From positions 1 to 34,857 of the forward strand of contig CACYSU010000020.1 of NCBI GenBank assembly GCA_902777205.1: a stretch of 34,857 bases of DNA, read 5' to 3'. The stretch is from an uncultured Rhodospirillales bacterium (GTDB taxonomy: Bacteria; Pseudomonadota; Alphaproteobacteria; CAAGCB01; CAG-977). Under the pieces are notes generated by a model that saw only the letters and a list, made by a program, of their open reading frames with translations, searched no databases and was not told where the DNA came from. Of the stretch, positions 6,942 to 16,749 are shown in pieces; within the stretch, counting starts at the first letter, position 1, and each line of letters opens with the position of its first letter. The translations under genes were made by a program, and so were the position numbers.

Positions 6942-8018
6942 ATGCAAACAGAATCGTTTTTACCGGCGTCCGTCGCCGTGGTTTTGTGTGTTGTTTTGGC
7001 GGCCGGATTGGTTTTCGCCGTGTGCCGCGTGTTCAATTTGCGCGCGAAACGGGCGGCGTTGAAAGAAAAGGTCGTCGAGCTGCAAAACGCGCTGATTCTG
7101 TGCCAGAAAGAGCTGGAGGATATGAAAAAGGAAAAGCATCGCCAGATGGATCCCTACTCCTCCAAAAACACGAAAAGCCTGTTTGTCTGTCTGGACAAGG
7201 ACGGCGTCATCCGCTCCATCAACGATTACGCCTGCGAACTGTTCGGATACGACCGTGAAGAGCTGGTCGGCAAAAACATCATCGGTTCCATTGTTCCGGC
7301 CAAGGATTCGCACGGGCAGACTTTGACGAATCTGGTCGAACGCATCAAAAACAACCCGCGCCTGTATCTGGACAACGAAAACGAAAGCGTTTGCAAAGAC
7401 GGGCGGAAATGCTGGATTTCATGGACGAACCGGATCGTGTACGCCCCCGACGGTTCGCTGCAGGAAATCCGTTCCGTCGGTTTCGACATCACGCCGCGCA
7501 AACAAATGGAAGAGGAATTGCGCCAAATGACCGTCATCGACCCCGTGACGGGTGTTTTGAACCGCCGCCAGTTCTTGGAGGACGGGGCGAAGGAAATGAA
7601 GCGCGCGCGCCGTTACAAACGCGATTTGTCCGTTTTGCTGATGACGATCGACCGGTTTGAATCGCTGAACACGGAACACGGCCCCGCTTTCGGCGACGAA
7701 GCGATTCGCGTCGCCGTGACGGCGTGCCAGAATTCGATCCGCGATTCGGATTATCTGGGGCGGCTGGCCGACATCGAATTCGCCATTTTGCTGCCGGAAA
7801 CCCCGCTGGAGGGGGCGAAGATCGTCGCCGAACGCATCCGCGGCGAAGTCATGCATTCCGATTTGATGGTCGAAAACGTCAAAATCGCCGTCACGACCAG
7901 CATCAGCATCGCCGCGCGCACGGACGCCGACGAAACGATCGACTCCGTTTTGCTGCGCGCGTTCAACTCCCTGCGCACCAGCAAGGCGCGCCAAAACAAC
8001 ATCGCCGTCGCCGAATGA
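6942..8018 (+). CDS. Membrane PAS protein with degenerate GGDEF domain
   Basis: 358 residues from ATG 6942, which has GGGGTGG just upstream; an in-frame ATG at 6930 overlaps that site and is less likely. Order: one N-terminal membrane helix (8-28), a short coiled coil (35-68), a PAS domain (about 76-188, with YACELFGYDREELVGKN and the FDITPRKQ end), then a GGDEF-fold domain (195-350). The diguanylate cyclase signature is lost: the position of GGDEF reads ADIEF (276-280), and the first metal aspartate is T235 in LLMTIDRFE. The fold markers DPVTGVLNRR and FGDEAIR remain. It is therefore probably a non-catalytic sensor or effector and not a c-di-GMP synthase. The PAS ligand is unknown. It forms a single-gene unit ending at a strong terminator. 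Confidence 0.85.
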   Translation: MQTESFLPASVAVVLCVVLAAGLVFAVCRVFNLRAKRAALKEKVVELQNALILCQKELEDMKKEKHRQMDPYSSKNTKSLFVCLDKDGVIRSINDYACELFGYDREELVGKNIIGSIVPAKDSHGQTLTNLVERIKNNPRLYLDNENESVCKDGRKCWISWTNRIVYAPDGSLQEIRSVGFDITPRKQMEEELRQMTVIDPVTGVLNRRQFLEDGAKEMKRARRYKRDLSVLLMTIDRFESLNTEHGPAFGDEAIRVAVTACQNSIRDSDYLGRLADIEFAILLPETPLEGAKIVAERIRGEVMHSDLMVENVKIAVTTSISIAARTDADETIDSVLLRAFNSLRTSKARQNNIAVAE

Positions 8019-9109: not shown

Positions 9110-9310
9110 CCGCGTTTGTGAAATGACGAACGCAGGGCGTCAGAAACCCTTTTGAGATAGTCGCCTTGTGTATGGCGACTGATAAATCATACGCCGAATC
9201 TGTCCTTAATCGGGCGGATTTCGGTGAATAAGGCTGTACGCTGAATAAGCCGAGCCGTCTTATCTCAAACGGTTTCTGAAAATCCGCCCACCTGCAAAGG
9301 TGGGTATTTT
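9110..9310 (+). ncRNA. Candidate structured RNA or repeat element with a four-way-junction fold
   Basis: The 300-base gap between two genes folds by inspection into a closed multi-branch structure. P1: TCAGAAACC (9140-9148) pairs with 9271-9279 and TTTGAGATA (9151-9159) with 9261-9269, giving 18 bp with a CT/C internal loop. P2: GTCGCC/GGCGAC (9160-9165, 9174-9179). P3: 9194-9205 with 9212-9224, 12 bp with one bulge and two G-U pairs. P4: a short GGCT/AGCC helix (9232-9235, 9248-9251). A terminator-like hairpin CCCACC/GGTGGG (9287-9304) with TATTTT follows, and a possible -10 GATAAT lies at 9098-9103. It may be a small RNA, a leader of the gene at 9334, or a MITE-like repeat. It matches no family I know. 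Confidence 0.5.
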
Positions 9311-9333
9311 CATACAAGGAAAGGATTTCAGAA

Positions 9334-9672
9334 ATGAAAAAATTGTTAAAACCGCTTTTATTCATCGTTTGCGCGCTCTGTTTTGCCCAAGCAGCAAAAG
9401 CGGATACATATGTCAGCGGTTATTACCGCAGGAACGGAACATACGTCGCGCCGCATTACCGTTCCGACGCGAACAACACCAAACGCGACAACTGGTCAAC
9501 TGTGGGAAACGTCAATCCCTACACGGGACGGGCGGGTACAAAAACCTATGACAGCTACAACAACTACGGTAACAGCTACAGCAACTACGGCGGACGTTCT
9601 TCGGGATATTCGCAAATCGGCAGTTTTTCGGGCAACGGAAACAGTTTGCGCCGATCCAACCGCCTTTATTGA
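9334..9672 (+). CDS. Small secreted protein with Tyr/Asn/Ser-rich tail
   Basis: 112 residues with a clear signal peptide (MKKLLKPLLFIVCALCFAQA, cut near AKA-DT). The mature part starts with YVSGYYRRNGTYVAPHYRS and contains NVNPYTGRAGT. This short pattern is known to me from many small exported bacterial proteins of unknown function that carry YxRxNGTxVxPHxR and GNVNPYTG. The rest is a Tyr/Asn/Gly/Ser-rich low-complexity tail. A tandem AAGGAAAGGA ribosome site precedes ATG 9334. The location is periplasmic or extracellular; the function is unknown. It lies just downstream of the structured segment at 9135-9304, which may act as its leader. Confidence 0.75.
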   Translation: MKKLLKPLLFIVCALCFAQAAKADTYVSGYYRRNGTYVAPHYRSDANNTKRDNWSTVGNVNPYTGRAGTKTYDSYNNYGNSYSNYGGRSSGYSQIGSFSGNGNSLRRSNRLY

Positions 9673-12846: not shown

Positions 12847-14034
12847 ATGGCTGAAACGGCACCGCGCGGCGAACGGCTGAACATCGGATTGTTCGGCAGA
12901 CGAAACGTCGGAAAATCTTCGTTATTGAACGCGTTGTGCGGACAATCGGTGTCCATCGTGTCCGACACGGCGGGAACGACGACGGACGCCGTTTCCAAAA
13001 TTTACGAACTGATCCCCGTCGGCCCCGTCACTTTTTTCGACACGGCGGGCATCGACGACACCGGTGATATCGGCGAATTGCGCGTTCAGGCGACGCGCAA
13101 AGTGATGAACAAGGCCGACATCGCCCTGTTGGTGACGGACGAAACGGGCGTCGGCGCGTATGAAAAAACGCTGATCGACACGATGACGGCGTTGAAAATC
13201 CCGTTCATTCTGGTCGTCAACAAAAGCGACAGAGCACGCCCCGAAACCGGCGCCGTCCCCTGCCCCGTCCTGTCCGTTTGCGCGAAAACCGGCGAAAACA
13301 TCGAAGAATTGAAACAGCTGATCAAAGACACCGTCCCCGATCATTTGAAAAACGCGCCCGCTTTGGTGCGCGATTTGATACGGGCGGGACAAACCGTCGT
13401 CTGCGTCGCGCCGATCGACACTTCCGCGCCCAAAGGCCGCCTGATCCTGCCGCAAGTGCAGGTCATCCGCGACATTCTGGACGCGCGCGCCTACGCTTAC
13501 GTCGTGCAAAACGATCAGGACTTTTTAAACGTGAACGCCGGATTGAAAACGCCGCCCGCTTTGGTGGTCACGGATTCCCAGCTGATCAAATCCGTGGCGG
13601 CCGCCGTTCCGGACGACATCCCTCTGACGACTTTTTCAACGCTGTTCGCGCGGTACAAGGGCGATTTGAAGATTCTGCTGGACGGCGCGCGGAAATTGCG
13701 CGAATTGCGGGACGGCGACGCCGTTTTGATCGCCGAAGCCTGTTCCCACCATGTGCAGGACGACGACATCGCGCGCGTGAAAATGCCCGCGCTGATTAAA
13801 AAGGCGACCGGCAGGGATATCCGCTTTGAATGGTCGGCCGGCGTCGATTTCCCGGCCGATTTGCGCCGGTTCAAGGTCGTCATCCATTGCGGCGGGTGTA
13901 TGCTGTCGCGTTTGGAAACGCTGCGCCGGCTGAACGAATGTGTGCGCTGCGGCGTTCCCGTTACGAATTTCGGAATGGCTCTGTCCGCGATGCAGGGCGT
14001 CCTTGACCGCGTTGTCCGGCCGTTCGGGGTGTGA
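12847..14034 (+). CDS. hydF: [FeFe]-hydrogenase maturation GTPase HydF
   Basis: 395 residues, normal for HydF. HydF is the GTPase scaffold on which HydE and HydG build the H-cluster 2Fe precursor before transfer to HydA. The N-terminal GTPase domain shows G1 GRRNVGKSS (17-25), G2 TAGTT (41-45), G3 DTAG (65-68) and G4 NKSD (125-128). The C-terminal cluster-binding domain shows EACSHHVQDDDIARVKMP (C299, H301, H302) and HCGGC (H347, C348, C351), the three cysteines needed for the [4Fe-4S] cluster. GGAGGG precedes ATG 12847. hydE, hydG and hydA are not in the window. Its presence implies an [FeFe] hydrogenase and anaerobic hydrogen metabolism. Confidence 0.95.
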   Translation: MAETAPRGERLNIGLFGRRNVGKSSLLNALCGQSVSIVSDTAGTTTDAVSKIYELIPVGPVTFFDTAGIDDTGDIGELRVQATRKVMNKADIALLVTDETGVGAYEKTLIDTMTALKIPFILVVNKSDRARPETGAVPCPVLSVCAKTGENIEELKQLIKDTVPDHLKNAPALVRDLIRAGQTVVCVAPIDTSAPKGRLILPQVQVIRDILDARAYAYVVQNDQDFLNVNAGLKTPPALVVTDSQLIKSVAAAVPDDIPLTTFSTLFARYKGDLKILLDGARKLRELRDGDAVLIAEACSHHVQDDDIARVKMPALIKKATGRDIRFEWSAGVDFPADLRRFKVVIHCGGCMLSRLETLRRLNECVRCGVPVTNFGMALSAMQGVLDRVVRPFGV

Positions 14035-15843: not shown

Positions 15844-16395
15844 TCACCCCGCGACGCAGCAACATCCGTCGGCGGACAGCTTCATATCGTCCGGACAGGA
15901 AATGACCGTGCCCGTTTTTCCGGAATCAACGGTGACGCATTTTCCGTTTTTCAGTGTGTAGCCGCTTTTGCACGCCGTGCAGACCGACGACGACGAACAC
16001 GCGGAACAGTTGGCGGGACAAGTGACGGAAGCGGTCGTTTTGCGTTCACATCTATAGTATGAAATTGATGTGTAACTGCTTCCGTCATAGCTGCTTGTCG
16101 TGGCTTTTTTCAATTCATATCCGCTGTTGCAGGAATCGCACGAACCAAGTGTGCTGTTTGCATAGGAATGAATTTCCCCTTTCTCTTCGTCCCAGTATTG
16201 ACAAGTCGTCCAATAACGGACGCCGCTGCAGGATGAACATCCGCTTGGGCAGGAAACGCAACGCTCGGCACTAAAACCGCTGTTGTCACCGCAAGATTCA
16301 GCCGCCGAATAATACTGTCCCGAACTGCACGACAGCGCCTTTGCTTCCGCCGCGAACAGTAAAAACAGGCTGAATATCAATAAAAATCTTTTCAT
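15844..16395 (-). CDS. Secreted cysteine-rich protein (20 Cys)
   Basis: 183 residues from ATG 16395, with GGAGGGA immediately upstream; the open frame runs further to 16584 but that part overlaps the structured segment and lacks a start site. The signal peptide is MKRFLLIFSLFLLFAAEAKA. The mature protein of about 160 residues holds 20 cysteines in CxxC and CxxxC clusters, such as CVSCPSGCSSCSG, CDSCNSGYEL and CTACKSGYTLKNGKC. These resemble the furin-like or EGF-like cysteine repeats of eukaryotic surface proteins. Ten disulfides are possible, which implies export and a Dsb-type oxidation system. The function is unknown; a surface or adhesion role is a guess from the repeat type. Confidence 0.75.
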   Translation of the reverse strand: MKRFLLIFSLFLLFAAEAKALSCSSGQYYSAAESCGDNSGFSAERCVSCPSGCSSCSGVRYWTTCQYWDEEKGEIHSYANSTLGSCDSCNSGYELKKATTSSYDGSSYTSISYYRCERKTTASVTCPANCSACSSSSVCTACKSGYTLKNGKCVTVDSGKTGTVISCPDDMKLSADGCCCVAG

Positions 16396-16419
16396 AGCTC
16401 CCTCCTTTTTCAGGCAAAA

Positions 16420-16444
16420 GAAAAACCGCCTGAAACAAGCGGTT
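16420..16444 (-). terminator. Rho-independent terminator of the candidate RNA
   Basis: On the minus strand AACCGC (16444-16439), a 9-base loop and GCGGTT (16429-16424) run into a T tract. It ends the gene-free segment and lies 25 bases before the Cys-rich gene's start. It cannot belong to serS, which has its own terminator 300 bases upstream. Confidence 0.75.
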
Positions 16445-16700
16445 CGGGGAGTTAGAACAATCAACTGTTGCGGTGATTCCCTTTGACCTTTAAAGCGGCA
16501 CCGCGAACGGCGCGCTTCTGAACATACGCCAAAAGCTCCCCGTTCCACCAAAGGAAATCGGGGATAATGTCCCGCCTCCGCCAATCTCGCGGAAACGGTA
16601 ACGGCGCCCTATCGCGGCACCGGCAACAGTAAAGAGCTGTTCTAAGGCTCCGCACCTCTTTTTCAGGTACTTGGCGCACCGGAACATCCGATACGCTTGG
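16436..16700 (-). ncRNA. Candidate rod-like noncoding RNA
   Basis: This segment lies between two minus-strand terminators and has no credible protein. Minus-strand nested helices found by eye: CAAGCG/CGCTTG (16699-16694, 16441-16436); TCGG/CCGA (16691-16688, 16447-16444); side hairpin GTACCT/AGGTGC (16670-16665, 16657-16652); GGAG/CTCC (16651-16648, 16451-16448); TTAGAACA/TGTTCTAA (16645-16638, 16459-16452); ACTGTTG/CAACAGT (16630-16624, 16470-16464); an 11-bp helix 16622-16612 with 16506-16496. The apical domain has two more hairpins. The outermost helix begins where the promoter at 16734-16705 would start transcription. Size, about 265 nt, and a rod joining both ends are loosely like 6S RNA, but I do not recognise 6S, RNase P, tmRNA or SRP signatures. 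Confidence 0.6.
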
Positions 16701-16704
16701 ATTA

Positions 16705-16734
16705 AGGATAGCCGTTCACCGCCGCGTTTGGCAA
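16705..16734 (-). promoter_or_regulatory. Possible promoter of the candidate RNA
   Basis: TTGCCA (16734-16729) and TATCCT (16710-16705) are separated by 18 bases on the minus strand. Transcription would start near 16698, at the first base pairs of the RNA's closing helix. The boxes are imperfect; the match of position with structure is the main support. Confidence 0.35.
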
Positions 16735-16749
16735 GATGTTTTTACAAGC

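Follow-up and report, generated by a model that had tools for sequence, protein, structure and literature searches.

Metabolite riboswitches and candidate riboswitch classes (i.e., the Cis-reg and riboswitch entries of Rfam) are located in 5' untranslated regions and contain a large core in which helices covary and unpaired bases are near-invariant. Their terminal strand can pair into the core or into a terminator/Shine-Dalgarno hairpin, and many copies occur per genome. The RNA described here is alike in these respects, although its terminal-strand exchange is a prediction; it differs in matching no Rfam family and in having a regulon of mobile-element, restriction-modification, and surface genes instead of one metabolic pathway. 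The put RNA, EAR, and LoaP elements, compared here at the sequence level by the Rfam scan, also resemble it as structured leaders that precede horizontally acquired operons and have a terminator downstream. These elements are simpler hairpins, whereas our leader RNA has a multi-pseudoknot core, a predicted terminal-strand exchange, and many single short target genes. The 6S RNA (RF00013) is likewise long, mostly helical, and of similar length, but the leader RNA is multicopy (at least 15 copies in 1.94 Mb), lies in a cis leader position, and has a pseudoknotted core. The ornate large RNAs OLE, GOLLD, and ROOL are free-standing (PMC12286853); they share with the leader RNA a complex fold, an unexplained purpose, and a partial occurrence in mobile DNA and rumen bacteria, but the leader RNA is much shorter, belongs to an mRNA, and does not match their Rfam families.

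We analyzed a stretch of 34,857 nucleotides (here called the window) from an uncultured Rhodospirillales bacterium. Positions 16440 to 16700 of its minus strand are likely (a probability of about 0.7) to represent a copy of a new and widespread alphaproteobacterial cis-regulatory RNA that forms a riboswitch-like 5' leader. It is nearly certain that the element is a cis-acting structured leader. Judged from sequence comparison, it is probably a switch that turns the gene behind it on or off; we regard it as a candidate riboswitch and do not claim proven status.

Structure and covariation of the leader RNA

The minus strand of positions 16420 to 16740 folds with a minimum free energy of -143.7 kcal/mol, compared with -110.3 ± 4.6 kcal/mol for shuffled sequences (z = -7.2; 0 of 100 shuffles). 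This agrees with the strong fold proposed in an earlier, sequence-only reading of this DNA, and three of the helices named there (i.e., GGAG/CTCC, an 8-bp helix that corresponds to strands b and b' in Table 1, and a long hairpin, corresponding to h5, whose stem tolerates G-U pairs) are present and show conservation and covariation among relatives. The nested pairs from which a rod-like shape was deduced do exist, but they form part of a fold whose core contains several pseudoknots. The proposed pairing of the two ends (CAAGCG/CGCTTG) did not hold, as the 3' CGCTTG arm of most copies sits in a terminator-like hairpin (CCGC..GCGG), and a separate hairpin is formed by the 5' segment. The same reading saw no protein here; stop codons indeed occur in all three frames in 54 of 57 copies, core lengths fall into all classes modulo 3, and the broken frames rule out a protein-coding interpretation.

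TABLE 1 Coordinates of the two leader RNA copies and their associated signals and genes in the window
Feature	Position	Strand	Basis or remark
Predicted sigma-70-like promoter	16705..16734	-	-35 TTGCCA 16729-16734, 18-nt spacer, -10 TATCCT 16705-16710
5' hairpin GCGTATCGGATGTTCCGGTGCGC, first hairpin of the leader; sequence varies between copies	16674..16696	-	MFE fold, alignment
Hairpin GTACCTGAAAAAGAGGTGC ahead of the core	16652..16670	-	Fold, alignment, RNAalifold
Conserved leader RNA core (covariance model R1 positions 1-202)	16444..16652	-	R1, 147.5 bits
Strand a (TTAGAACA), loop of 5' hairpin h1; long-range partner a' (TGTTCTAA)	16638..16645	-	
Strand b (ACTGTTGC), long-range helix with b'	16623..16630	-	Covaries
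Hairpin h3; loop pairs with the linker ahead of h4 (pseudoknot c-c')	16602..16623	-	
Optional hairpin CCGTTTCCGC..GCGGAGGCGG, missing from compact relatives	16572..16598	-	
Hairpin h4, TCCCCGA..ACGGGGAG; 3' strand also complementary to the terminal strand	16536..16564	-	
Hairpin h5, near-invariant internal loop GUAUGUUCAG / UUUAAAG	16481..16535	-	Invariant columns
Strand b' (GCAACAGT)	16464..16471	-	
Strand a' (TGTTCTAA)	16452..16459	-	
Terminal (putative switch) strand CTCCCCGA, complementary to 5' GGAG, h4 3' strand, and Shine-Dalgarno region	16444..16451	-	
Terminator-like hairpin GAACCGCTTGTTTCAGGCGGTTTTTC in the core-to-start-codon interval	16420..16445	-	
Shine-Dalgarno AAGGAGGGAG and downstream gene (start 16395) for a 183-aa Cys-rich secreted protein	15844..16407	-	
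Second, divergent leader RNA copy	9118..9292	+	R2, 19.6 bits, E 0.006; R1, 8.9 bits only
Terminal strand AUCCGCCC of the second copy; pairs 8/8 with h4 3' strand GGGCGGAU (9212-9219)	9282..9289	+	
Terminator-like hairpin CCCACC..GGTGGG and T-run of the second copy	9287..9313	+	Read from sequence
112-aa secreted-protein gene behind the second copy	9334..9672	+	

Family comparison gave a core of roughly 170 to 220 nt, in which the elements are ordered from 5' to 3' as h1 (GGAG and CUCU around strand a), strand b, h3 (with loop c), c', h4, h5, h6 around b', a', and the terminal strand CUCCCCGA. The internal loop of h5 is near-invariant (GUAUGUYCAG/UAAAG). Across 102 copies, 96.2% of the cells of the nested model were paired (80.5% after shuffling) and 578 were double-change cells (149 after shuffling; 0 of 500 shuffles reached this level), the alignment being fitted to the model, which somewhat favors the pairing figures. 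Sliding this alignment by one column reduced pairing to 51 to 54%, and an unsupervised covariation ranking placed helix-consistent pairs at the top with almost no exceptions. Among the individual elements, high levels of pairing accompanied by double-change cells were observed for a-a' (96% in 95 copies; 160 cells), h3 (96%; 142 cells), and the two h5 stems (94 to 96%; 154 and 113 cells). In the set of compact, plasmid-type copies, the pseudoknotted structure (i.e., a-a', b-b', c-c', and the hairpins) was paired at 90.3% (77.1% after shuffling) with 83 double-change cells (29 after shuffling); its c-c' pseudoknot was paired at 89.6%, and both sides had changed in five of the six pairs. Helix h6 received moderate support (75.9% paired; null maximum, 73.1%), and the local pairing of h4 (96.4%; null mean, 95.3%; null maximum, 96.1%), which competes with the terminal strand, is too conserved for covariation proof. 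The comparisons show a shared core of covarying helices, several pseudoknots, and near-invariant internal-loop nucleotides, i.e., the aptamer-like core with near-invariant unpaired nucleotides by which a riboswitch class is recognized.

G.U cells outnumbered A.C cells by 308 to 29. This excess fixes the strand and argues that the molecule acts as RNA and against a structure formed at the level of single-stranded DNA. Recent copies of a transposon or MITE were also rejected as an identity, as the other copies are partial and 71 to 96% identical, contain compensatory changes, and have no shared flanking repeats that we could see. Scans at Rfam gathering thresholds gave no match in the window, in 12 class-level loci, or in 6 plasmid/phage loci, and lax scans of Rfam 15 (up to an E value of 10 in the window region) gave nothing meaningful. 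The suggestion of a conserved functional RNA, possibly new, is thus borne out by covariation over about 100 homologues and by the lack of an Rfam 15 family; the reported absence of tmRNA signatures likewise agrees with the lack of any tRNA or tmRNA match in the region. We found no description of the leader RNA in the open-licence literature. The results from Rfam 15 and the searchable open literature suggest that this RNA is undescribed.

Position upstream of genes

An ATG with a Shine-Dalgarno-like site and an open frame of at least 60 aa starts within 80 nt of the core end in 93 of 129 copies, while only 207 of 2,580 random positions in the same loci (8%) satisfy this test; location in the 5' leader of a downstream gene is a further feature by which a riboswitch class is recognized. 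Relatives are consistently found 25 to 70 nt upstream of a start codon. A promoter-like TTG..TAnnnT precedes 47 of 57 family copies (122 of 570 shuffles), and a terminator-like hairpin is present between the core and the start in 55 of 93 copies (81 of 465 shuffles). In some copies, the U-run is merged with the Shine-Dalgarno-to-ATG gap. Taken together, the position of the ATG and Shine-Dalgarno site, the upstream promoter-like signals, and the downstream terminator-like signals identify the element as an mRNA leader. The window copy is the 5' leader of the Cys-rich secreted-protein gene, whose start is located 48 nt past the core, and the element is therefore no orphan with its own transcription unit after serS, as had been supposed. 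Two paralogues in the same genome (L070 and L068:5983; 56 to 61% identical to the window protein) are each preceded by the leader RNA, and the three Cys-rich proteins constitute a small paralogous family with a common leader.

The second copy in the window (z = -7.4 for its fold) has all of the helices but different letters. Relatives of the 112-aa protein behind it occur in two other families (32% and 48% identity over the aligned parts; E values, 2e-10 and 2e-11), also behind R2-type leaders. Since this gene-RNA pairing recurs independently in other families, the weak model score of the second copy is credible. Pfam gave no useful function for the two window proteins behind leaders; the Furin-like Cys-rich match of the first (15847-16395) was below threshold.

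Alternative partners of the terminal strand and possible mechanisms

The terminal strand CUCCCCGA has three potential pairing partners: the 5' GGAG, the h4 3' strand (UCGGGGAG), and the Shine-Dalgarno region. Pairing with the h4 3' strand is 8/8 in most copies, including altered versions (i.e., UCGGGGUG/CACCCCGA, UCGGGAAG/CUUCCCGA, and UUGGGGAU/AUCCCCGA), and complementarity is kept where both sides are wholly rewritten, as in the second window copy (GGGCGGAU/AUCCGCCC) and in G000:C2:156181 (ACCGGAAG/CUUCCGGU, read from sequence). Pairing energies between the terminal strand and the Shine-Dalgarno region averaged -8.58 kcal/mol, compared with -8.03 ± 0.15 kcal/mol for re-dealt partners (0 of 200); in the window's family alone, the true partners were weakly better (-8.71 and -8.40 ± 0.19, respectively). 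In several methyltransferase leaders, the terminator includes both the terminal strand and the Shine-Dalgarno site (e.g., CUCCCCGAGCCGC..GGCGGUUCACGGGGAUUUUUUUUAUG). Read from the sequences, this arrangement has the anatomy of an expression platform that would operate as follows.

The core would fold while the leader is being transcribed. In one state, the last strand CUCCCCGA would be held by the core (i.e., by the 5' GGAG or the h4 3' strand), and the gene would be readable. In the other state, the strand would be released into a terminator or an anti-Shine-Dalgarno hairpin, and transcription or translation would stop. The factor that tips the balance may be a small ligand, a protein, or the polymerase itself. 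Because the targets lie on plasmids, phage contigs, and chromosomes of many families, the partner of the RNA must be something that nearly all Alphaproteobacteria have.

The main rival to such a switch is a protein- or polymerase-responsive leader that acts by attenuation or processive antitermination without a small ligand, as the put RNA, EAR, and LoaP-like elements do; we consider this unlikely, but the strongest of the alternatives. The folded RNA would modify the polymerase or recruit a factor, which would lead to readthrough of the leader terminator and of long acquired operons. A terminator-like hairpin straight after the core (55/93 copies) is consistent with this scenario, as are the long, horizontally acquired genes among the targets (i.e., restriction enzymes, glycosyltransferases, autotransporter-like proteins, and conjugation regulators) and the many hosts, which imply a universal partner. 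However, many targets are single short genes (e.g., TraM of 102 aa and small secreted proteins), 38 of the 93 copies examined have no recognizable terminator-like hairpin, and no known antitermination element was matched in the Rfam scan. In addition, the terminal-strand exchange suggests direct control of the terminator or the Shine-Dalgarno site.

An independent trans-acting small RNA (6S-like or new), with a dedicated promoter and with the terminator at its 3' end, is improbable. Promoter-like and terminator-like signals do flank the RNA, and attenuation could let a short transcript accumulate; but an ATG and Shine-Dalgarno site follow at a rate 9 times that of random positions, about 15 divergent copies are present per genome, and some copies have the merged U-runs described above. 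The 6S RNA, which the sequence-only reading named as the nearest known possibility, can be set aside: RF00013 gave no match even at E values of up to 10, and the 15 copies per genome are leaders of diverse genes. Least probable of all is a constitutive 5' untranslated region that stabilizes the mRNA or aids translation and does not switch, since simple protection would require neither the near-invariant h5 internal-loop bases nor the alternative partners conserved for the terminal strand, even if compact pseudoknotted 5' structures can block ribonucleases and the target genes have no obvious common signal.

Distribution among genomes, plasmids, and viral contigs

When the host genome was searched by BLAST with the window segment, 13 matches were obtained including the segment itself, the others being partial stretches with 71 to 96% identity. 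Covariance model R1, built from 24 copies, detected 15 copies in the 1.94-Mb host genome; it also matched 11 of 12 genomes from the host's family and 26 of 385 sampled Alphaproteobacteria, including 4- to 5-Mb genomes with a shorter core. The exact core pattern was found on 33 contigs in named genomes, nearly all of them metagenome-assembled genomes (MAGs) of gut or rumen Alphaproteobacteria. Contigs labeled Gastranaerophilales and Erysipelotrichaceae that bear this pattern are probably mis-binned alphaproteobacterial DNA in MAGs. Covariance model R2 was built from 13 compact copies, none of them from the window's family; it matched 53 of 385 class genomes (43 genera) and 27 of 398 phylum genomes (8 outside the class). 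As R2 nevertheless recovers the window core at 16444..16652 (E value of 8e-4 genome-wide; 29 bits and E value of 3.9e-5 in a smaller search), the long and compact forms belong to one superfamily.

BLAST searches with a compact copy identified 269 plasmids, mostly from Agrobacterium and Rhizobium (223 were typed as conjugative), and a traM-type copy identified 365 plasmids. The window copy as a query matched no plasmid, and its core pattern matched no viral contig. The compact core pattern was present on six viral contigs (seven copies), with an ORF 68 to 76 nt behind each core. One of these contigs carries compact cores at 7550 and 10469, i.e., 2.9 kb apart, each followed after about 75 nt by an ORF with a signal-peptide-like start.

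Genes downstream of the leader RNA

Pfam searches of 115 downstream proteins identified HTH_3 regulators (8 proteins), EcoRI-type adenine methyltransferases (6), GT2 glycosyltransferases (6), acyltransferases (5), PilS-type pilins (3), and RovC_DNA-bd proteins (3; this family also matches proteins annotated DUF2285), together with restriction enzymes, porins, and PEGA proteins; PADLOC added type II, IIG, and III methyltransferases. The downstream genes are accessory ones (i.e., conjugation antiactivators, XRE regulators, methyltransferases and restriction enzymes, pilins, and outer-membrane and surface-modifying proteins) and have no common metabolic theme that would indicate a ligand.

On Ti, At (pAt), Rhizobium, and Bradyrhizobium plasmids, including pTiA6, the leader RNA is located just upstream of traM, whose product is the TraR antiactivator. 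On the Ketogulonicigenium plasmid pYP1, the gene behind it is a lone-DUF2285 (QseM-like) one that has DUF2285/DUF6499 (FseA-like) genes as neighbors, and a QseM-like gene also follows it in Paracoccus. The leader was present at the QseM-like genes L247 and L249 and absent at five other QseM-like DUF2285 genes (L250 to L254) and two diverged TraM genes (L258 and L259) that were tested; the association with TraM and QseM is therefore frequent but not obligatory. TraM and QseM are members of different Pfam families, and both are antiactivators of quorum-sensing-controlled transfer (PMC10359603, PMC7856919).

A broader reading, which we offer tentatively as the less likely outcome, is that of a class-wide switch that serves the mobile and accessory genome specifically. 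It would have spread with plasmids, phage-like contigs, restriction-modification systems, and surface-modification genes, would make incoming genes responsive to a universal signal of the Alphaproteobacteria, and would place the unrelated antiactivators TraM and QseM-like proteins under the same control. Should the switch prove real, one of the best-studied bacterial classes contains a large multi-pseudoknot regulatory RNA that has been missed even before the Ti-plasmid traM, the quorum-sensing control of which has been studied for decades. Conjugation, DNA modification, and cell-surface genes would then be subject to an additional layer of RNA control. Which universal signal the leaders read is a testable question. 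A bistable switch on qseM transcription has been published (PMC10359603), and the contribution of the leader RNA to it, where the leader is present, can now be asked.

Sequences adjacent to leader copies

In three copies (G000:C23:1-89, G000:C6:97510-97598, and one on G006:C19), a common sequence beginning with TATGGTTTTAAAGCG directly follows the terminal strand. It is identical over 89 nt in the two copies of the host's own genome, each of which is located at a contig end, and the junction resembles the boundary of a repeated or integrated element that makes use of the 3' end of the RNA. A weak copy (G000:C1:41222-41376, minus strand) is followed at a distance of about 150 nt by an apparent tyrosine-recombinase/integrase gene. 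In another genome (G026), a cobalamin riboswitch (L159:4814-5028; Rfam, 117 bits) is found about 0.6 kb downstream of a leader RNA copy. Elsewhere in the window, the ORF at 12847-14034 (plus strand) reads like a HydF-type GTPase of [FeFe]-hydrogenase maturation, which is unusual for an alphaproteobacterium and fits an anaerobic gut lifestyle.
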